Of a stretch of 64,000 nucleotides of DNA, positions 5,766-31,499 are shown in pieces (position 1 is the stretch's first letter; every line of letters begins with the position of its first letter). Under the pieces are notes generated by a model. That model did no database searches, had not been told where the DNA came from, and worked only from the letters and a program-made list of their open reading frames with translations. Both the position numbers and the translations under genes were made by a program. Location: contig NZ_LVJR01000021.1 in the NCBI RefSeq assembly GCF_001617365.1, positions 1 to 64,000 on the forward strand. The letters are read 5' to 3'. The stretch comes from Rhodanobacter sp. FW104-R8. GTDB lineage: Bacteria; Pseudomonadota; Gammaproteobacteria; Xanthomonadales; Rhodanobacteraceae.

Positions 5766-5839
5766 GTAGGAGCCCGCTGGCGGGCGATGCCTTCCCCGGA
5801 TGCCAAAGACAAGAGCATCGCCCGCCAGCGGGCTCCTAC
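5766..5839. repeat. REPIN-like inverted repeat that supplies the cutC stop codon
   Basis: Perfect 25-base inverted arms (5766-5790 and 5815-5839) beginning GTAGGAGCCCGCTGGCGGGC enclose a 24-base spacer. Each arm contains its own short palindrome. This is the structure of two REPs in inverted orientation. The cutC stop codon TAG (5836-5838) is the TAG of the GTAGGAG head. Confidence 0.85.
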
Positions 5840-8862: not shown

Positions 8863-8921
8863 GTAGGAGCGCACCCTGTCCACAAGGGACTTCCTTCGGT
8901 CATGCGCGGTGCTCTAGCTTC
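8863..8921 (+). repeat. 59-bp dispersed repeat, copy 2
   Basis: Starts GTAGGAGCGCACCCTGT and ends CTCTAGCTTC. It aligns over its full 59 bases with the reverse strand of 74-132. An internal hairpin AAGGGACTTCCTT is shared by both copies. It overlaps the start of the next inverted repeat by a few bases. Confidence 0.75.
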
Positions 8922-9000
8922 GTAGGGCGGGCACTGCCCGCCGCTCTTGGCCGTGCGCGTTGTCGAAAAGCATGGCGGGCGCTGCCCGCCCTACGAAGCT
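8916..9000. repeat. Large inverted repeat (REPIN-like, GTAGGGCGGGC type)
   Basis: 27-base arms at 8916-8942 and 8974-9000 are inverted copies with two mismatches. Each arm contains its own GGCGGGC...GCCCGCC palindrome. They flank a 31-base spacer. The element lies between the MTI phosphorylase start and the hpt stop, so it would be in the hpt 3' region of any shared transcript. Confidence 0.8.
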
Positions 9001-9634: not shown

Positions 9635-10647
9635 GCGGTTCCTCGGTCGGCGTGCAGGGCCGTGATGCGCGCGACGAAGCGGTCGCGCTGGGGGTTGTCG
9701 GTGAGGCTGTCCCAGCTGGCGCCGATGGCGCCGCGCAGGGCGGCCAGTCGCGGCGGCACCGGTGCGGCGGCAGCAGGCAGTGCGGCGATCGCCTCGTCCA
9801 CCACCTCGGGGAAGCAGGCCAGCACCAGGTCGCAGCCGGCGTCCAGGTGCGCGCGCACCCGTTCGCCCACGCCGCCGGCGGCGCCGGCGGCGGCCATGCT
9901 GATGTCGTCGCTGACCACGGCGCCGGCGAAACCCAGCTCGCCGCGCAGCACCTGCCCGATCCACACCTTGGAGTAGCCGGCCGGCCGGCTGTCCACCGCC
10001 GGATAGGTGACGTGCGCCATCATCACCGCCTCCACCCGCGCCTCGATGCATTCGGCAAACGGCAGCAGGTCGTCGCGGCGGATCGCGTCCAGGCCGCGCG
10101 GGTCGATCGCCGCCGCCTTGTGCGTGTCGACGGCCACCGAGCCGTGCCCCGGGAAATGCTTGAGCACCGCCGCCATGCCGGCCAGGTGCATGCCGCGCAC
10201 GTAGGCCTGGGCCAGCTCGGCGGTCACCGCCGGATCGGGGTGGAACGCGCGCAGGCCGATCGCCGCGTTGCCGCGGGCCAGGTCCACCACCGGCGCGAAG
10301 CTGAAATCGACGCCGCTGGCGCGCAGCTCGCTGGCCATCACCCAGGCGTGCTCCTCGGCCAGGCGCACCGCTTCGCCGGGGTCGCGGTCATGCACCGCGC
10401 CGATCGCCGCCAAGGGCGGCAACCGGGTGAAGCCGTCGCGGAAGCGCTGCACCGGGCCGCCTTCCTGGTCCACCGCGATCAGCAGCTCCTCGCCGCCGGC
10501 CTCGCGGATCGCCTCGCATAGCGCGATCAGCTGTTCGCGCGAGGCGTAGTTGCGCGCGAACAACAGCACGCCGGCCACGCCGGGCGCGGCGAGCCAGCGC
10601 TTCTCGCGTTCGGCCAGTTCCAGCGCGGCCACGCCGATCATCAGCAT
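9631..10647 (-). CDS. nagZ: Beta-N-acetylhexosaminidase NagZ
   Basis: 338 residues, glycoside hydrolase family 3, cytoplasmic (no signal). It removes GlcNAc from GlcNAc-anhydroMurNAc-peptides during peptidoglycan recycling. Characteristic segments are AVDQEGGPVQRF, the KHFPGHGSVAVDTHK loop carrying the catalytic Asp/His dyad, and SDDISM containing the nucleophile aspartate. Start choice is between ATG codons at 10647 and 10641; both overlap the end of the CYTH gene. The stop overlaps the hpt start (ATGA). Confidence 0.95.
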   Translation of the reverse strand: MLMIGVAALELAEREKRWLAAPGVAGVLLFARNYASREQLIALCEAIREAGGEELLIAVDQEGGPVQRFRDGFTRLPPLAAIGAVHDRDPGEAVRLAEEHAWVMASELRASGVDFSFAPVVDLARGNAAIGLRAFHPDPAVTAELAQAYVRGMHLAGMAAVLKHFPGHGSVAVDTHKAAAIDPRGLDAIRRDDLLPFAECIEARVEAVMMAHVTYPAVDSRPAGYSKVWIGQVLRGELGFAGAVVSDDISMAAAGAAGGVGERVRAHLDAGCDLVLACFPEVVDEAIAALPAAAAPVPPRLAALRGAIGASWDSLTDNPQRDRFVARITALHADRGTA

Positions 10648-11162
10648 GCGGCATCCCCGGCGGTGTGTTCCGCCGGCGACCATTGCCGGTACGGGTGCGC
10701 GATCAGGTTGACGTTGTAGTAGTGCGCCAGCGTGCTCACCTCGCGGCCCAGCCACGGCGGCCGCGGGAACGGCGCGTCGACGGCCGGCAGCTCGACCTCG
10801 GCGACGACCAGCCCGCGGTTGTCGCCGGCGAATTCGTCGATCTCGAACAGCGTGCTGTCGACCCGCACGTAATGGCGCGTCTTCTCCAGCACGCCGTCGC
10901 ACAGCGTGGCCAGCAGGATCCTGGCGTCGTCGAGCAGGATCGGGTACTCGAACTCGGCCCGCTCGATACCGAGCCTCGCGGCCTTGATGTTGAGCCACCC
11001 GCGCTCGCCGGCGAGGCGCACGCGCACCGAGGCGTGTGCGTGTCCCTCGCGCAATGCCCGCGCACCCACCAGATAGCCCTGCGCGATCGGCTCGCTGCGT
11101 TCGACGGCGGCGCGCCAGCCATCGTTGGCCAACAGGAATTTGCGTTCGATTTCGATGGCCAT
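10641..11162 (-). CDS. CYTH-domain protein (triphosphatase-like)
   Basis: 173 residues comprising one CYTH domain. It opens with the signature EIERKFL and has the alternating charged strands of the triphosphate tunnel (RVRLAG, LNIKAAR, EFEYPI, EIDEFAGDNRGLVVAEVEL). Family members hydrolyse inorganic triphosphate or related organic triphosphates; adenylate cyclase activity occurs in some. The last codons overlap nagZ, so this is the first gene of the CYTH-nagZ-hpt cluster. No strong ribosome site precedes the ATG. Confidence 0.85.
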   Translation of the reverse strand: MAIEIERKFLLANDGWRAAVERSEPIAQGYLVGARALREGHAHASVRVRLAGERGWLNIKAARLGIERAEFEYPILLDDARILLATLCDGVLEKTRHYVRVDSTLFEIDEFAGDNRGLVVAEVELPAVDAPFPRPPWLGREVSTLAHYYNVNLIAHPYRQWSPAEHTAGDAAC

Positions 11163-11167
11163 AAAAG

Positions 11168-11321
11168 TCAGGAGCGGGCGGAGAGGAGTGAGCAGTGAGA
11201 GAGAGCAAAAACAAGAGCGTCAGGCATGCACTGCCTCGCCCGAATCGACACGGCAACGGCGTGAAGGATCATGCACTGACTTTCTCTCACTTCTCACTCC
11301 TCTTCACTCTCTCCTCGCTCC
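11168..11321. repeat. GAGTG-rich inverted element, copy 1
   Basis: A purine-rich left arm (about 11172-11207, units of GGAGTGAG and AGTGAGAG) and a complementary pyrimidine-rich right arm (about 11281-11321, CTCACTCCTCTTCACTC units) can form a long imperfect stem around a roughly 70-base centre. The right arm runs directly into the rlmD stop codon (11322-11324). Related copies lie at 16964 and 30866. Confidence 0.7.
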
Positions 11322-12659
11322 TCAGCGCTCGAACAACGCGATCGATTCGACATGCGAAGTGTGCGGGAACATGTCCATCACCCCGGCCGAGGCCAGCGTG
11401 AAGCCATGCCGGTCGACCAGGATGCCGGCGTCGCGCGCCAGCGAGGCGGGGTGGCACGAAACGTAGACAATGCGACGGGTCTGCTTGTGCGGCAGGTATT
11501 CCAGCAGCTTGTCCGCGCCGGCGCGCGGCGGGTCGAGCAGCAGCTTGTCCCACGGCACTCGCGCCCAGTCGGCGGCACGCTGGTCCTCGAACAGGTTCGC
11601 CACGTGGAAGCGTGCGTTGGCGATGCCGTTGCGCGCGGCGTTCTGCGCCGCCCGTTCGACCAGGCCATGCTCGCCTTCCACACCGACCACCTCGGCCACG
11701 CGGCGGGCGATCGGCAGGGTGAAGTTGCCGAGACCGCAGAACAGATCCAGCACGCGGTCGGCCGGTTGCGGGTCGAGCAGTTCCAGCGCACGCGCCATCA
11801 TCCGCTGGTTCATGCCGGCGTTGACCTGCACGAAGTCCAGCGGCTGGAACTCCAGCTCGACGTCGGCGAAGCGCGCGTCGCCGCTGGCGATGCGGAAGGC
11901 CAGCCGCGGATTTTCTGGCCACAGCGGATGCACGCTGCTGGTGCCGCCCGGCTGCAGGAAGATCGCGAAACCGTGCTGCCGGCCGAACGCGGTCAGCGCG
12001 GCCAGGTCGCGTTCGCCCAGCGGCTGCATGTGGCGGAACACCAGCGCCATGGTGTCGTCGCCGGCGGCGAACTCGATCTGCGGGATGTCGTTGACCGCCT
12101 CCATCCCGCCGAGCAGGTCGGCAAGCAGGCCGACCTTGGGGCCCAGCGCCGGGTGCATCACCTCGCACTGCTGGATCTCGGTGACGAAGCGCGGGTTCTG
12201 TTCCTCGCGGAAGCCCACCAGCACGCGGCCCTTCTTCGCCACGTTGCGCACCGATAGCCGACCCTTGCGCCGGTAGCCCCACGGCTCGGCGGTGAGCGGC
12301 GGCAGCCATGCCTGCGGCGTGACCTTGCCGATGCGCTCGAAATTTTCCGCCAGCACGCGCTGCTTGGCCTCGATCTGCGCGGCGGCATCCAGGTGCTGCA
12401 GCGAGCAGCCGCTGCATTGCGCGAAATGCCGGCAGCGCGGCTCTACCCGGTGCGGCGAGGGAGTGATGACTTCGGTGACGTCGGCCTCGTCGAAATGGCG
12501 ATGGCGCTTGCGCAGGCGGGCCAGCACGTGCTCGCCCAGCAAGGCGCCGCTGACGAACACCGCCTTGCCGTCGACCCGGGCCACGCCTCGGCCATCATGG
12601 CCGAGGTCGGTGATGTGGGCTTCGAAAGGTGTTTGGGAAACTGAGTTGGATCGGGACAT
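11322..12659 (-). CDS. rlmD: 23S rRNA (uracil-1939-C5)-methyltransferase RlmD
   Basis: 445 residues. An N-terminal TRAM domain (about 10-70) precedes the iron-sulfur cysteines CRHFAQCSGCSLQ plus a later QQCEV cysteine. The Rossmann methyltransferase domain shows VLDLFCGLGNFTLPIA for SAM binding, DPPRAGA, and the catalytic cysteine in YVSCHP. It methylates U1939 of 23S rRNA using SAM. The length matches RlmD/RumA. It is followed by the GAGTG repeat element, then the CYTH-nagZ-hpt cluster on the same strand. Confidence 0.96.
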   Translation of the reverse strand: MSRSNSVSQTPFEAHITDLGHDGRGVARVDGKAVFVSGALLGEHVLARLRKRHRHFDEADVTEVITPSPHRVEPRCRHFAQCSGCSLQHLDAAAQIEAKQRVLAENFERIGKVTPQAWLPPLTAEPWGYRRKGRLSVRNVAKKGRVLVGFREEQNPRFVTEIQQCEVMHPALGPKVGLLADLLGGMEAVNDIPQIEFAAGDDTMALVFRHMQPLGERDLAALTAFGRQHGFAIFLQPGGTSSVHPLWPENPRLAFRIASGDARFADVELEFQPLDFVQVNAGMNQRMMARALELLDPQPADRVLDLFCGLGNFTLPIARRVAEVVGVEGEHGLVERAAQNAARNGIANARFHVANLFEDQRAADWARVPWDKLLLDPPRAGADKLLEYLPHKQTRRIVYVSCHPASLARDAGILVDRHGFTLASAGVMDMFPHTSHVESIALFER

Positions 12660-12726: not shown

Positions 12727-12800
12727 GTAGGAGCGCACCCTGCGCGCGATGGCTCTTCGTGACGTGACGAAAAGCCAGCGCGCACAGGGTGCGCTCCTGC
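12727..12800. repeat. REPIN-like inverted repeat (GTAGGAGCGCACCCTG type)
   Basis: Left arm 12727-12745 begins GTAGGAGCGCACCCTGCGCG and the right arm ending at 12800 is its inverted copy. The spacer contains a second inverted pair (GGCTCTTCGT and a TTTTCGTCAC-type segment). It ends two bases before the stop codon of the DUF1318 gene, so it forms that gene's 3' end. Confidence 0.8.
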
Positions 12801-15513: not shown

Positions 15514-16251
15514 ATGACCAGCCACCTTGCCGGCCCCGATCCGGACCCGATCGACCTCGCCCGTCCACGCGTGCTGGTGGCCGACGACGACCCCGGCAGC
15601 TGCCGTTTCCTGTGCGACGGGCTGGACTCGTTGGGTGCCCGCGCGCAGGCCTGCATGAACGGCCTGGTGGCCCTGCAGCTCGCCCGTACGGAGGCCTTCG
15701 ACCTGCTGCTGCTCGACTGCCGCATGCCGGGCGCCGGTGCGCGGCAGATCCTCGCCGCGTTGCGCGAAGACCCGCAGGCGCCTTCGGCGGAAAGCCTCGC
15801 CGTCGCCACCACCGCCGAGCTGGCGCCCGAGGGCCGCCAGCCCCTGCTCGACGCCGGTTTCAGCGAGGTCCTGGTCAAGCCTTGCGGGCTGGCGGACCTG
15901 CAGCGCGTGCTGGCCCTGGTGCAGCCGGAGCGCGACGGCGCTTGCGTGCTGGACGACCGCACCGCGCTGGACACCACCGGCGATGCCACCACCATGCGCG
16001 CACTGCGCCTGCTGCTGCGCGAAGAACTGGCCCTGCTCCAGCAGGAACTGGATACGCTGAGCCGCGACCGCGACGGCTTCAGCGAGCGCCTGCATCGGCT
16101 GCGCTCGTCCTGCGGGTTCTGCGGCGCGGCCGCGTTGTCGCGGCAGACCGTGCTGCTGCAGCAGCAGGTTTCGCGACGCGGCGCCACACCGGCCGCCCTG
16201 GCCCGCTTCCGCACCGTGCTGCAGGCGACGCTGCAGGCGCTGGACGACTAG
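15514..16251 (+). CDS. Response regulator: receiver domain plus HPt-like domain
   Basis: 245 residues. The N-terminal receiver (about 18-135) has the acidic pair VLVADDDPG, the phosphoacceptor in LLLLDCRMPG, a TT pair and the conserved lysine in LVKPCG. No DNA-binding domain follows. Instead the C-terminal ~90 residues form a helical region with HRLRSSCGFCGA, which matches the HPt pattern H-x-L-(K/R)-(G/S)-S-x-G-x-x-G-A with its phosphorylatable histidine. No histidine kinase is nearby. Its stop overlaps the convergent recO stop. Confidence 0.82.
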   Translation: MTSHLAGPDPDPIDLARPRVLVADDDPGSCRFLCDGLDSLGARAQACMNGLVALQLARTEAFDLLLLDCRMPGAGARQILAALREDPQAPSAESLAVATTAELAPEGRQPLLDAGFSEVLVKPCGLADLQRVLALVQPERDGACVLDDRTALDTTGDATTMRALRLLLREELALLQQELDTLSRDRDGFSERLHRLRSSCGFCGAAALSRQTVLLQQQVSRRGATPAALARFRTVLQATLQALDD

Positions 16252-16961
16252 GGCCGCCGCGACACGGCCATCGCCAGTACCCGCCAGGCACGCAGTTCGC
16301 CGCCGCCGAGGTGGAAGCGGATGACCTCGCGCATCATGTCGCGCAGCTCCTTCAGGCCGACGCTGTCGGGCATCTCGTCCTGCTCCAGTGCCAGCAGGTC
16401 GCTGCCGCGCAATGCGCGCGGACTGCCGGCGGCACAGCGCATGGCGCCCTGCTCCGCCACATAGCGGTAGCACGCCGCCGGCTCGATCGCCTCGCCGGTG
16501 TCGGCGTCGTGCTGCAGCTGCAGGCCGTAGCCGATCGCCTCGAGCAGGTCGCGCTCGAAACGGCGCAGGCTCCACGCCAGCGATTCGCCGGCAGCCAGCC
16601 GCGCCAGCGTCCGCGCGTAGGCATCGAACAGCAGCGGGTGCGGATCCTGCCGCCCGGTCAGGCGCACCACCAATTCGTTGAGGTACAACCCGGCCAGCCC
16701 GGCGTCGCCCGACAAGCGTGCCGGCGTGTCCACCACCTCGACCGCGGTCAGCGTGGCCAGCTCGCCACGCAGCAGCAGATCCAGCACCAGCGGCTGGAAC
16801 GGCTCCAGCTGGGCCCGCCGCAGCCGCGAGCGCTCGCCGCGCACGCCGCGCGCCACCACACCCAACCGGCCATGCTCGCGGGTCAGGCATTCCAGCAGCA
16901 GCGACGTCTCGCGGTAGGCGCGTGCGTGCAGGACGTAGGCGGGTTGCTGTTCGATGCGCAT
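16248..16961 (-). CDS. recO: DNA repair protein RecO
   Basis: 237 residues. An N-terminal OB fold (about 1-80: AYVLHARAYRETSLLLECLTREHG... opening) is followed by the helical RecO domain. RecO mediates RecA loading with RecR and anneals SSB-coated DNA. The zinc-binding cysteines of some RecO proteins are absent, as in many gammaproteobacteria. It lies downstream of era on the same strand, as is common, but is separated from it here by a GAGTG-rich repeat. The last four bases overlap the stop of the convergent regulator. Confidence 0.94.
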   Translation of the reverse strand: MRIEQQPAYVLHARAYRETSLLLECLTREHGRLGVVARGVRGERSRLRRAQLEPFQPLVLDLLLRGELATLTAVEVVDTPARLSGDAGLAGLYLNELVVRLTGRQDPHPLLFDAYARTLARLAAGESLAWSLRRFERDLLEAIGYGLQLQHDADTGEAIEPAACYRYVAEQGAMRCAAGSPRALRGSDLLALEQDEMPDSVGLKELRDMMREVIRFHLGGGELRAWRVLAMAVSRRP

Positions 16962-16963
16962 GA

Positions 16964-17060
16964 AAAGCCAAGAGTGAATGATGAGAAGTGAGTAACGAGA
17001 GAAAGCAGATCTGCCGCTCTTCGCTTTTCACTCACTCCCCACTCCTCTTCACTCACTCCT
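16964..17060. repeat. GAGTG-rich inverted element, copy 2
   Basis: Left arm with GAGTGAATGATGAGAAGTGA-type units (about 16970-17005) and right arm TTTTCACTCACTCCCCACTC...CACTCACTCCT (about 17024-17060). The end of the right arm contributes the first bases of the era stop codon TAG (17059-17061 on the plus strand reads CTA). It shares the CACTCCTCTTCACTC core with copy 1. Confidence 0.65.
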
Positions 17061-17991
17061 AATCGGTATAGCCGAACTTCTTCAGCATGTTCTCGTCGTC
17101 GACCCAGCCTTCGCGCACCTTCACCCACAGCTTCAGGAACACCTTGCGCTCGAACATGCGCTCCATGTGGCGCCGCGCGTTCATGCCGATCGCCTTGAGC
17201 TGGGCGCCGCCGTTGCCGATCACGATCGCCTTCTGGCCGTCGCGTTCGACCCAGATCACCGCGTGGATCTCGGCGATGCCGTCGGGGCGGTCGCTGAACT
17301 GCTCGATCTCCACCGTGGTTGCGTACGGCAGTTCCTGGTCGAGCCGCAGCATCAGCTGCTCGCGCACCATCTCGGCGGCGAGGAAGCGCTCGCTGCGGTC
17401 AGTCACCTCGTCCTCGCCGAACACCGGCGGCTGCACCGGCAGGCGCTTGAGGATCGCCTGCTCCAGCTCCTTCAGGCCCTGCTTCTTGAGCGCGCTGACG
17501 TAGTGGATCTCGTCGTAGCCGTGTTTCGCCGCCAGCTCGGCCACGAACGGCAGCATCGCCGACTTGTCCTTACTGAGGTCGACCTTGTTGATCACCAGCA
17601 CGCGCGGCGTCGACTGCTCGACCAGGGCGGCGTAGAGCGCCTCGTCCTCGTCGGTCCAGCGGCCGGCCTCGATCACCTGCACCACCAGGTCGACGTCGCT
17701 GATCGCCGAGCGCGCGGCGCGGTTGAGGCTGCGGTTCATCGCCCGCTTGGCGCCGCGATGCAGGCCCGGCGTGTCGACGTACATGATCTGCCCGGCCTCG
17801 CTGGTGTTGATGCCGAGGATGCGGTGGCGGGTGGTCTGCGGCCGCGGGCTGGTGATCGACAGGCGAAAGCCGATCAGCGCATTGAGCAGGGTCGACTTGC
17901 CCACGTTGGGACGCCCGGCCAGCGCGACCGTGCCGCAGCGGAAGTTCTCGTGCGGCAGGCTGCCGGCGGCGGAGTCCAGTTCTTGGTTCAT
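17059..17991 (-). CDS. era: GTPase Era
   Basis: 310 residues from the ATG giving [10 protein letters not shown]. GTPase motifs are G1 GRPNVGKS, G2 region PQTTRH, G3 DTPGLH and G4 NKVD. The C-terminal KH domain carries [13 protein letters not shown]. Era binds the 3' end of 16S rRNA and is needed for 30S assembly. It is downstream of rnc in the lepA-lepB-DUF4845-rnc-era-recO run. The stop codon lies at the edge of a dispersed repeat. Confidence 0.97.
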
Positions 17992-20204: not shown

Positions 20205-20289
20205 GAGCCGGGAATGGGGATTCGGGATGGGGGATTCGGAGCGCAGACATGCTCTGTCGAATCCCGAATCCCGAATCCCGAATCCCGGC
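20205..20289 (-). repeat. GAATCCC heptamer array abutting the lepA stop codon
   Basis: Four tandem GAATCCC units (20252-20286) lie opposite an imperfect inverted GGGATTCGG-type pair (about 20215-20246), allowing a stem-loop with a centre around GCAGACATGCTCTG. The array runs to within two bases of the lepA stop codon (20290-20292). The same heptamer occurs at the hpt stop. Confidence 0.7.
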
Positions 20290-28793: not shown

Positions 28794-30860
28794 ATGTTCG
28801 AAGGACTGCGCTTCAACCACTGGAAGACCAGCGAAGGCGACGACGGCATCGTCACGCTGACCCTCGACCGCGCCGGCAGCAGCGTCAACGCGATCTCCCG
28901 GGCGGTGCTGGACGAACTCGAGCAGATCGTCGAGCGGCTGGCGATCGAGAAGCCGGCCGGCGTCATCATCCATTCGGCCAAGCCTTCGGGGTTTGCCGTC
29001 GGTGCCGACATCAAGGAATTCGTCGGGTACGCGAAGCACGACACCGTGCTGGAGAACATCGAGCACGGCCAGCGCGTCTACGAGGCGCTGGCGCGGCTGC
29101 CCTGTCCCACCGTGGCCGCCGTGCACGGCGCCTGCATGGGCGGTGGCACCGAGCTGATCCTGGCCTGCCGCCAGCGCATCGGCGCCGACGACGACAAGAC
29201 CCGGATCGCGCTGCCCGAAGTGATGCTGGGGATCCATCCCGGCTGGGGCGGTACCGCACGCCTGCCGCGCCTGATCGGCGCCACCGAGGCGCTGCCGCTG
29301 ATGCTGACCGGCAAGTCGCTGTCGGCGAAACGCGCGCTGGGCCTGGGCGTGGTCGACCGGCTGGCCCGTCCCGAGGAATTGCTGGTCGAGGCGCGACTGC
29401 TGCTGCGCCACGCCGCGACGCGCCCGTTCGCGCGGCGGGCCAAGGCCTGGGCCAGCAATACCTGGCTGGTGCGGCAGATCCTGGCGCCGATGGTGCTCGG
29501 GCAGACCGCCGCCAAGGTGCGCAAGGAACACTACCCGGCCCCGTTCGCGCTGATCGACGTGTGGAAGCTCGGTGGCTCGAACATCCAGCAACGGCTGAAG
29601 ATCGAGGCACGCTCGGTGGCGAAGCTGGCGAAGACGCCGACCGCGCAGAACCTGATCCGCATCTTCTTCCTGCAGGAGCGGTTGAAGGGCCAGGGCAGCG
29701 GCGTCGAGCACGGCATCAGGCACGTGCACGTGGTGGGTGCCGGCGTGATGGGCGGCGACATCGCCGCGTGGGCCGCGCTCAAGGGCTTCGAGGTGACCCT
29801 GCAGGACCGCGGGATGAAGTTCATCCAGCCCGCGCTGGACCGCGCCCGGGCGCTGTACGGGAAGAAGCTGAAGGCGCCGGAGAAGGTCGAGGCCGCGATG
29901 CGCCGCCTGCGCGCCGACGTCGAGGGTGCCGGCGTGGCTTCGGCGGACCTGGCGATCGAGGCGATCTACGAGAACGCCGAGGCGAAGGAAGCGCTCTACG
30001 CCGGCATCGAGCCGCACTTCCAGGCCGACGGAATCCTCGCCAGCAATACCTCCAGCATCCCGCTGGACGAACTTCGCAAGAACCTGAAGGCGCCGCAGCG
30101 CTTCCTCGGCCTGCACTTCTTCAACCCGGTGGCGCAGATGCCGCTGGTCGAGGTGGTGCGCCACGACCGGCTCGACCCGGACGTGGAGAAGCGCGCGCTG
30201 GCGTTCTGCAAGGCGATCGGCAAGCTGCCGGTGGCGGTCAAGGGCACGCCCGGCTTCCTGGTCAACCGCATCCTGATGCCCTACCTGCTGGAGGCGATGC
30301 TGCTCTACAGCGAGGGTGTGCCGGGCCCGGTGCTGGATCGCGAAGCGAAGAAATTCGGCATGCCGATGGGCCCGATCGAGCTGGCCGACACGGTCGGCCT
30401 CGACGTCTGCGCCTCGGTCGGCCGGGAGCTGGCGCCGTTCCTGGGGCTGGAGCTGCCGCCGGGGCTGGACACCAGGCTCGAGGCGGGCAAGCGTGGCAAG
30501 AAGGATGGCCAGGGCCTGTACGTATGGCAGGACGGCAAGCCGCTGAAGCCCGAGGTCGACAAGGAGTACGTGATGCCGCCCGACGTGCAGGAGCGCATGA
30601 TCCTGCCGATGGTCAACGAGGCCGTCGCCTGCCTCGCCGACGGCGTGGTCGACGACGCCGACCTGCTCGACGCCGGGGTGATCTTCGGCACCGGCTTCGC
30701 CCCGTTCCGCGGCGGCCCGATCCAGTACGCGCGCAGCGAAGGCGTGGACCAGCTCAAGGCCCGGCTCGAACAGCTGGCCCAGCGCTACGGCGACCGTTTC
30801 AAGCCGAAGAACGGCTGGGACCTTGCGGCGCTGGCGCAGAAAAGCAACAGCGAGAAATGA
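28794..30860 (+). CDS. Fatty-acid oxidation multifunctional enzyme (enoyl-CoA hydratase / 3-hydroxyacyl-CoA dehydrogenase)
   Basis: 688 residues from the ATG giving MFEGLRFNHW; the long upstream frame is non-coding. The crotonase half (about 1-190) has GFAVGADIKEF for the oxyanion hole, ACMGGGTELILACR and the catalytic glutamate in LPEVMLGIHPGWGGT. The dehydrogenase half begins with the NAD-binding VHVVGAGVMGGDIA near residue 310 and includes GLHFFNPV and PGFLVNRI. It performs two sequential beta-oxidation steps, as in FadB/FadJ. No thiolase is adjacent, so this resembles the stand-alone FadJ arrangement. Confidence 0.93.
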   Translation: MFEGLRFNHWKTSEGDDGIVTLTLDRAGSSVNAISRAVLDELEQIVERLAIEKPAGVIIHSAKPSGFAVGADIKEFVGYAKHDTVLENIEHGQRVYEALARLPCPTVAAVHGACMGGGTELILACRQRIGADDDKTRIALPEVMLGIHPGWGGTARLPRLIGATEALPLMLTGKSLSAKRALGLGVVDRLARPEELLVEARLLLRHAATRPFARRAKAWASNTWLVRQILAPMVLGQTAAKVRKEHYPAPFALIDVWKLGGSNIQQRLKIEARSVAKLAKTPTAQNLIRIFFLQERLKGQGSGVEHGIRHVHVVGAGVMGGDIAAWAALKGFEVTLQDRGMKFIQPALDRARALYGKKLKAPEKVEAAMRRLRADVEGAGVASADLAIEAIYENAEAKEALYAGIEPHFQADGILASNTSSIPLDELRKNLKAPQRFLGLHFFNPVAQMPLVEVVRHDRLDPDVEKRALAFCKAIGKLPVAVKGTPGFLVNRILMPYLLEAMLLYSEGVPGPVLDREAKKFGMPMGPIELADTVGLDVCASVGRELAPFLGLELPPGLDTRLEAGKRGKKDGQGLYVWQDGKPLKPEVDKEYVMPPDVQERMILPMVNEAVACLADGVVDDADLLDAGVIFGTGFAPFRGGPIQYARSEGVDQLKARLEQLAQRYGDRFKPKNGWDLAALAQKSNSEK

Positions 30861-30865
30861 GTGTG

Positions 30866-30932
30866 CAGGAGTGAAAATGAGTGAGAGCGACGTATTGCCT
30901 ACTCGTTTCTCACTCCTCTCCACTCACTCCTC
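30866..30932. repeat. GAGTG-rich inverted element, copy 3
   Basis: Left arm AGGAGTGAAAATGAGTGAGA-like (about 30867-30889) and right arm TCTCACTCCTCTCCACTCAC-like (about 30908-30932) lie between the convergent stops of the fadB-like gene and yaiL. It shares the CTCACTCCTCT(T/C)CACTC core with copies at 11168 and 16964 and could act as a two-way terminator. Confidence 0.65.
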
Positions 30933-30938
30933 GTCCAA

Positions 30939-31499
30939 TCACCACATCAGGTCGTCGGGTACCCCATCGTCGCCGACTCCGACGGAGCCGGGCTCGATCA
31001 GCAGCGCCACCAGATGCGCATCGATGTCGCGCACCTGCTCGGCGATCTCGCGGCTGACCAGCAGGTAGCGGCCGCCTTGCTGCACCACGCCGAGCCTGCC
31101 GGCATTGAGGGCCGCCATCTGCTCGGCGTCCACGTGCACCCGGCGGATCTTGCCGCCGTATTCGAAATGGCGCGGCTGGTCGGCCTCGGCCTTGTTCAGC
31201 GCCTTGCCGTCGAGCAATTGCTGGATCTTCTGCTTGCGCTCGTGGCGCAGCCTGGCCTGTTCGGCCGCTTCCTGCTCGACCCGCTTGCGCTCGCGTGCTT
31301 CGGTCTGCGAGCGCAGCGCATAGGCCTTGGCCAAGTCGATATCCTGCAGGCTCTGCCGGCCCGGGACAGGCGGCTTGCCGCCCTTGCGCGCGGGTTTGCC
31401 TGACGGCGGCGACGGGCGTTTCGGTTCGTGCGCCCGGTTCTGCTGGACCTGTTTGACGATGCCACTCTTGAGCAGCTGATCGCGCAGGGAGTCGGCCAT
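30939..31499 (-). CDS. yaiL: DUF2058 (YaiL) family protein
   Basis: 186 residues from the ATG giving MADSLRDQLLKSG. This opening, a basic linker (about 25-45), a charged coiled-coil segment (about 60-100, QTEARERKRVEQEAAEQA) and a compact C-terminal part (FEYGGKIRRVHV...GRYLLVSREIAEQV) are diagnostic of DUF2058. The family is annotated as nucleoprotein or polynucleotide-associated, without a defined reaction. It is highly charged and cytoplasmic. It ends close to the GAGTG repeat and converges on the fadB-like gene. Confidence 0.88.
   Translation of the reverse strand: MADSLRDQLLKSGIVKQVQQNRAHEPKRPSPPSGKPARKGGKPPVPGRQSLQDIDLAKAYALRSQTEARERKRVEQEAAEQARLRHERKQKIQQLLDGKALNKAEADQPRHFEYGGKIRRVHVDAEQMAALNAGRLGVVQQGGRYLLVSREIAEQVRDIDAHLVALLIEPGSVGVGDDGVPDDLMW

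Follow-up and report, generated by a model that had tools for sequence, protein, structure and literature searches.

An ordered GAGTG heptad palindrome dispersed at stop codons in Rhodanobacter sp. FW104-R8 and other Lysobacterales

The heptad repeats closest in kind to the elements described here are the GGGNATC repeats of Xanthomonas and Nostoc, which in the parts of the source compared are mostly intergenic, lie between aligned or convergent genes near or overlapping a stop codon, have the G-rich strand as the coding strand and form 70 and 75 inverted pairs in two Xanthomonas genomes (Rehm et al. 2015, PMC4692102). They are mostly transcribed and form quadruplexes in vitro, and their describers put G-quadruplexes forward but were unable to assign them a role (PMC4692102). 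The TAACTGA heptads of Beggiatoaceae are described, in the sections compared, as dispersed and intergenic, mostly as direct repeats before start codons with one inverted (PMC4679880); the GAGTG elements are likewise dispersed intergenic heptads, but the TAACTGA repeats are not palindromes past stop codons.

Dispersed palindromes lying mostly downstream of genes are also known as GTAG/CGTC-tagged REPs, SMAG included, which have a 5-13 bp stem with an unpaired tag and the GTAG termini of which often provide a TAG stop codon, and as the TIR repeats of RAYT/TIRYT, as far as the relevant parts of the source go (Di Nocera et al. 2013, PMC3733652). The GAGTG elements are like both in this placement, but unlike the short tagged stems of the REPs theirs have 34 pairs and are untagged, and FW104-R8 gave no Y1 transposase.

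The window analysed is a stretch of 64,000 nucleotides from Rhodanobacter sp. FW104-R8, within which an earlier note had pointed out three long-stem elements at the ends of rlmD, era and yaiL. All three are present and are matched by a covariance model (R1) trained on 12 copies, the single window member of the training set being copy 2. The elements and their neighbouring genes are as follows, with E-values from the whole-genome covariance-model search.

11170 to 11315, no strand, copy 1 of the GAGTG heptad palindrome, a 72-nt loop between arms at about 11170-11206 and 11279-11315, E 8.2e-13, outside the training set

10641 to 11162, minus strand, CYTH-domain gene downstream of copy 1, Pfam CYTH 49.1 bits (cut-off 23.2)

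11322 to 12659, minus strand, rlmD, upstream of copy 1, NCBIfam PRK13168.1, 567 bits (cut-off 458)

16970 to 17060, no strand, copy 2 of the GAGTG heptad palindrome, with arms at about 16970-17006 and 17024-17060, E 2.7e-13, inside the training set

16248 to 16961, minus strand, recO, downstream of copy 2, NCBIfam TIGR00613, 80.3 bits (cut-off 48.7)

17059 to 17961, minus strand, era, upstream of copy 2, start codon provisional, NCBIfam PRK00089.1, 366 bits (cut-off 237)

30853 to 30931, no strand, GAGTG heptad palindrome copy 3, diverged, E 9.7e-8, outside the training set

28794 to 30860, plus strand, FadJ-like gene (fatty acid oxidation alpha-subunit-like), stop codon inside copy 3, Pfam 3HCDH_N and ECH_1, FadJ model 510 bits (below the cut-off of 869)

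30939 to 31499, minus strand, DUF2058 gene, Pfam DUF2058 94 bits (cut-off 25)

Copy 1 has the rlmD stop on one side (11322), 6 nt from its arm, and the start of the CYTH-domain gene (11162) on the other, whilst copy 2 takes in the final two bases of the stop codon of era, with the recO start 8 nt away. Copy 3 sits between convergent genes, covering the FadJ-like gene's final 8 nt and lying 7 nt from the stop codon of the DUF2058 gene, the yaiL of the first reading, YaiL being a DUF2058 protein. The observation that a minus-strand gene always has its stop codon on the side of the pyrimidine arm is correct for these three copies but does not hold as a rule of orientation, because the element is palindromic, so that the purine arm comes first when read from either strand, and copy 3 is also at the end of a plus-strand gene; the apparent rule follows from palindromy together with anchoring at stop codons. 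Allowing up to 3 mismatches, the window holds 7 occurrences of the core CACTCCTCTTCACTC, whereas its shuffles average 1.37 and 0 of 100 reach 7. At gathering thresholds Rfam gave 12 matches in the window, all of them tRNA and none on the GAGTG elements.

Members of the family consist of the purine arm AGGAGTGAGTGGAGAGGAGTGAGAAGTGAGAGAAAGC (37 nt), a loop of variable length and sequence, and then the reverse complement of the arm. The heptads of the arm run in the order AGGAGTG, AGTGGAG, AGGAGTG, AGAAGTG and AGAG, followed by AAAGC, and the arm is thus a fixed string of heptads instead of the variable pentamer repeats at first described, lag 7 being the best autocorrelation lag (in the era-recO gap this is so in all 6 GAGTG rows). 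The model stem has 34 pairs, and in the FW104-R8 genome the elements are 73-159 bp long with arms of 32-37 nt.

Further copies, the lack of which had been set beforehand as grounds for refuting the family, were found genome-wide at 29 places. The 3.72 Mb genome gave 58 covariance-model matches, each place being matched on both strands, which makes at least 29 copies, a lower bound as the best 150 of 1677 candidates were scored; the same 29 places were found again when the model was run on extracted regions. The exact 16-base core has 18 matches in the genome and 0 in a reversed control, with 17 of the 18, from which lone arms were judged, falling inside model hairpins. When the 58 arms are compared to a 32-nt consensus a median of 28 bases match, with 49 arms at 24 or more and 6 below 20. 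The three sites are therefore copies of one dispersed palindrome family.

The GAGTG family is a sister kind to the GGGNATC heptads and not a member of them. The two are alike in the 7-nt period, in being dispersed, in lying at stop codons and in occurring in part as inverted pairs, going by the parts of the GGGNATC paper compared (PMC4692102). The GAGTG arm is, unlike GGGNATC, an ordered string of unlike heptads with no GGG in its consensus and nearly always part of a palindrome, and it is found in Rhodanobacter, Dyella, Luteimonas and others, against Xanthomonas and Nostoc for GGGNATC in those parts of the source (PMC4692102). Four GGG tracts occur in an arm of 0 of the 29 FW104-R8 copies, which excludes a three-tier quadruplex as a feature shared by all of them. 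The statement that no described family has this structure stands for the GAGTG family itself, a search by words of the open-licence PMC literature giving no description of it among the papers listed, but it overlooked a close relative in kind, the published GGGNATC heptads, as seen in the parts of that paper compared (PMC4692102).

If the elements were RNA stems evolving in place, as the earlier note had proposed, with a selected hairpin kept by compensatory change, the two arms of a copy should agree with each other more than with arms of other copies, and this is not what is seen within the GAGTG family. Over the 12 training copies 88.2% of cells pair, against 88.8% after partner shuffling, and arm identity within and between copies is 0.775 and 0.777 for 23 of the 29 FW104-R8 copies (the six weakest dropped) and 0.855 and 0.853 for 41 of the 92 named places. 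The arms of GAGTG copies do not covary, so that their pairing goes back to a palindromic ancestor, and compensatory evolution in this family was rejected. Pairing, the loss of which had been named as a second ground for refutation, is kept, but without compensatory change. One arm sequence common to 29 dispersed copies is also not expected from evolution in place. This explanation does draw some support from outside the family, as long hairpins of unlike heptads occupy the same sites in different species, and in 28 GGGAAT/GGGATT hairpins the own arms are slightly closer than in within-subfamily shuffles (17.71 against 16.71, a value reached by 165 of 5000), yet overall it is considered quite unlikely. 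What survives of the first description is that these are dispersed long stems at gene ends which are not GTAG-tagged REPs; within the family, the copies share arm sequence and heptad order.

With gene ends taken from a simple codon-usage gene caller, 23 of the 29 FW104-R8 copies lie between co-directional genes, 4 between convergent and 1 between divergent ones, 1 is in an uncalled gap and 0 are inside genes. A 'named' set was drawn from records of named organisms, where 70 of 92 distinct places entered the context count, the other 22 having been removed by hand for being weak or cut, for lying close to the end of a locus, for being second copies or for coming from outside Lysobacterales (L133 and L146), whilst L116, labelled Caldilineaceae, was kept; here 39 copies are co-directional, 24 convergent, 3 divergent and 4 at an edge or gap, again with 0 inside genes. 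Element-free neighbour gaps in the same loci are 360 co-directional, 74 divergent and 60 convergent.

It is the stop codon to which the arm is anchored. The median distance from stop codon to arm is 4 nt in both sets, with 30 of 31 stop-side distances in FW104-R8 falling within -22 to +9 nt and 69 of 87 in the named set at +8 or less, and start-side distances have medians of 16 (FW104-R8) and 19 (named) with maxima of 104 and 231. Between co-directional genes the stop is closer than the next start in all 23 FW104-R8 copies and in 36 of 39 named copies (2 are the reverse and 1 is a tie). The arm contains the stop codon at 13 of 31 FW104-R8 and 26 of 87 named gene ends, and of these 39 negative distances, out of 118, 19 are -8; of those 19 stop codons 18 are TGA, namely the TGA of AGGAGTGA. 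All six era genes with a GAGTG-type element (L216, L219, L222, L228, L233, L239) have a TAG stop near the arm, and the lepA stops (L318-L347) are mostly TAG where the site is filled and mostly TAA where it is short.

A location past stop codons and between convergent genes would suit intrinsic or bidirectional transcription terminators, but a T-tract (at least 6 T in 12 nt with TTTT) follows the arm in just 1 of the 58 flanks of the 29 FW104-R8 copies, and of 5 terminator-like sites between 10600 and 20600 none is on copy 1 or 2. On these two grounds the canonical intrinsic terminator was rejected. In L078, L090, L127 and L132 a GC stem with a run of T was seen by eye inside the loop between the arms, so that there the arms are not the terminator. 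Terminators of either kind are thus a very improbable explanation. As RNA, six copies fold at -27 to -79 kcal/mol with z of -1.7 to -12.8; copy 1 reaches -78.6 kcal/mol (z -6.68) and copy 3 a z of -5.80, and copy 2 (z -1.74, with 13 of 200 shuffles as good) is little better than shuffled sequence.

Movement by a Y1 tyrosine transposase (RAYT/TIRYT) since lost from FW104-R8, which would make the element a repeat of REP or TIR type, has in its favour that palindromes dispersed downstream of genes, with termini possibly supplying stop codons, are typical of REPs and that Stenotrophomonas has TIR repeat families, both according to the parts of the source compared (PMC3733652). It is nonetheless unlikely, as no GTAG/CGTC tag is found in the flanks of the 29 copies, which have a loose preference for AAGC/GAGC, the stem is 34 pairs against 5-13 bp, and Y1_Tnp (PF01797) has 0 matches in the FW104-R8 genome in a search that matches 5 of 14 control genomes. 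The GTAG/CGTC REP was rejected on the tag and on RAYT absence in FW104-R8. One candidate, L126, in which arms 2 kb apart seemed to frame a transposase, was dropped, the arms being two separate hairpins. Other long palindromes in the window lie at 12729-12798, 5766-5839 and 8916-9000, some of them REP-like (GTAGGAGC), though the search of the genome gave no Y1_Tnp gene.

The preferred reading, held with modest confidence, is of a dispersed palindrome family that duplicates by DNA copying, is tolerated at gene ends and gives a very stable hairpin as its transcript. The palindrome, found almost only at stop codons, would multiply by DNA copying, and co-transcription with the upstream gene would then place a very stable hairpin right past the stop codon or between two cistrons. 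As this hairpin comes without a T-tract, shielding the upstream mRNA or separating cistrons is likelier than ending transcription, and it may be that the hairpin shields the upstream message against 3' exonucleases or spaces the cistrons. In E. coli, REPs near stop codons, with the hairpin within about 15 nt, reportedly hinder ribosomes (work attributed to Liang, Rudd and Deutscher in 2015); the GAGTG elements may be alike in the hairpin near the stop and possibly in the way of working, though the sequence differs. The copying process, the effect in RNA and whether the gene-end slot is selected or merely tolerant are each put at about an even chance or less.

The family is not confined to one strain. 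Covariance-model matches were found in 28 of 36 same-genus genomes, FW104-R8 included, and in 4 of 24 others, and order-wide in 69 of 299 genomes and 27 of 85 genera, all of these being lower bounds as the best 71 or 14 candidates per genome were scored in the wider runs. Among the matches listed (80 loci of 116 stretches) the carriers include Rhodanobacter, Dyella, Frateuria, Luteimonas, Pseudoxanthomonas and Lysobacter, and of these 80 loci those from Rhodanobacter records resemble the FW104-R8 regions most, at up to 92%. Unexpectedly, with both strands counted and E up to 0.1, 26 matches are found in a 5.95 Mb contig labelled uncultured Caldilineaceae and 119 in a MAG labelled Actinomycetota, Caldilineaceae/Chloroflexota and Actinomycetota being the labels of the records, and the same model search gave 0 matches in an Alcaligenaceae MAG. 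GAGTG hairpins lie in L146, L349, L351 and L353 of the first record and in L133, L348, L350 and L352 of the second, and for each locus of these records that was compared with those from Lysobacterales, the three stretches of greatest length in common are on the element. Either transfer or repeated origin may account for them. In L349 and L353 the hairpin lies a few nt past an apparent stop codon. Carriage by phage was sought in viral contigs, in what is a weak test, with one exact 21-mer and 0 stretches found.

How the same gene ends are occupied in sister species was compared in orthologous gaps of 30 same-genus genomes each for era-recO, ybaB-recR and lepA-lepB and 27 of 30 for rlmD-CYTH, each comparison using the best 30 loci of 45 genomes searched. 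The first three gaps were chosen as follows: era-recO and ybaB-recR, like rlmD-CYTH, for a copy in FW104-R8, and lepA-lepB for a second kind of heptad hairpin.

20207 to 20289, no strand, heptad hairpin of GGGATTC type between lepA and lepB, in contact with the stop codon of lepA, inverted repeat I3 of 32 nt with 88% complementarity

The GGGAWT heptad pattern has 26 overlapping matches in the FW104-R8 genome. Family labels were assigned by regular expression, with those for era in one tree test made by eye, and the recR gap of G035 is labelled GGGAAT though its left arm is GGGATT. The era-recO gap holds GAGTG in 6 genomes, GGGATT in 4, GGGAAT, GGGAAC and GACGAG in 3 each, GGGACC in 1 and other sequence in 7, with 3 short; ybaB-recR holds GGGAAT in 9, GAGTG in 6, a GTAG REP in 4, GGGATT in 1 and other sequence in 2, with 8 short; lepA-lepB holds GGGAAT in 5, GGGATT in 4, GGGAAC in 2, GGGACC in 1 and other sequence in 4, with 14 short and GAGTG in 0; and rlmD-CYTH holds GAGTG in 3, other sequence in 15 and 9 short gaps, a heptad hairpin thus being found in 3 of 27. 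The lepA-lepB gap alternates between GGG types and short gaps; the evidence that GAGTG and GGG types share a site comes from era-recO and ybaB-recR. In a survey of 317 gene pairs from 90 loci all 22 heptad-type stems scoring at least 14 are at these focal gaps, 2 of the 22 coming from FW104-R8; L259 and L268 (labelled GAGTG but actually another repeat) and L245 (its stem a run of N) were set aside from the survey.

Close species differ at the same site, in G002/G060, G019/G067/G010 and G009/G021/G035/G024, with flanks that are 91-99% identical in the pairs compared. At ybaB-recR, G009 and G024 are short and G021 and G035 filled (flanks 92-98% identical), and at era-recO, G002 and G060 have GGGAATA and GGGATTC (flanks 97-99% identical). 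It is here that the notion of evolving stems regains some ground, the same intergenic sites of close species holding hairpins of other heptads. On trees of the flanking genes the labels at era-recO, ybaB-recR, lepA-lepB and rlmD take 16, 16, 13 and 10 parsimony changes against shuffled means of 20.4, 17.8, 15.0 and 10.3, values near the shuffled ones at the last three. No shuffle fell below 16 at era-recO, and with labels by eye 0 of 200 were as low, so the labels there partly follow the tree and some of the pattern is vertical, which counts against the preferred reading, whilst the six GAGTG rows at this site require six changes. The empty lepA gaps have no obvious sequence in common with filled ones, which looks like exchange of whole intergenic alleles and also counts against that reading. 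Presence and absence between species could be deletion instead of insertion; the short recR gaps fit insertion within a few nt past the stop codon.

Changes in length are seen too. At recR, G032 and G033 differ by 14 nt, or two heptads, in one arm, at lepA a full hairpin in G033 is a short stub in G032, and L224 has one arm with a long run of CCCCGTT heptads. Such steps and the collapsed stub speak for neutral heptad microsatellites near stop codons, palindromic by template switching and with a quadruplex role like the one proposed for GGGNATC, as does lag 7 being the best lag in 19 of 27 era, 15 of 22 recR and 15 of 16 lepA gaps, with 5 of 18 at rlmD (gaps of at least 57 nt). This too is thought rather unlikely, the lack of four GGG tracts in any of the 29 GAGTG copies standing against it, nor would a plain microsatellite consist of unlike heptads in a set order that is maintained from genus to genus.

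Hairpins at different loci within one genome are more alike than shuffled ones (0.393 against 0.261, sd 0.051; 9 of 2000 shuffles), as measured on 19 pairs from three loci, in gaps with lag-7 agreement of at least 0.42 and with shuffles that ignore relatedness. No transposase or copying enzyme was identified for the GAGTG family, and the flanks of the 29 copies, judged by eye, have no clean target duplication. Tandem growth is seen in Pseudoxanthomonas composti (L136, 3777-3889) with three 38-nt right arms, and in Frateuria sp. Soil773 (L098, 4146-4436) a 152-nt unit is present in 1.9 copies, each with one arm and a terminator-like stem.

Added to the preferred reading, hairpins of the GAGTG, GGGAAT, GGGATT, GGGAAC and GACGAG families can take the same gene-end site in different species, with heptad hairpins that would lengthen or shorten in 7-nt steps, collapse and replace one another. 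Replacement of heptad families at one site is not reported in the parts of the GGGNATC paper compared (PMC4692102). A wider proposal, that Lysobacterales gene ends are exchangeable hairpin slots, in which a long palindrome matters and not its sequence, refilled by whichever family is spreading, and that GAGTG also reached or re-arose in the Chloroflexota- and Actinomycetota-labelled genomes, is tentative and on balance doubtful; the heptad hairpins in 3 of 27 rlmD gaps and lag 7 being best in so few of them mean that not every site is a shared slot. The alternation of quadruplex-capable and -incapable heptads between close species at era-recO and ybaB-recR amounts to a natural experiment, and what it suggests to be shared by these sites is the hairpin or its position and not the quadruplex. 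It also supplies matched species pairs in which mRNA decay, the separation of cistrons and the copying of repeats can be tested. In the gap downstream of rlmD (L247-L275) many relatives carry a different repeat, a GCGGCCATCCATGGCCGC palindrome, of which there are three tandem copies in G010 (L269).
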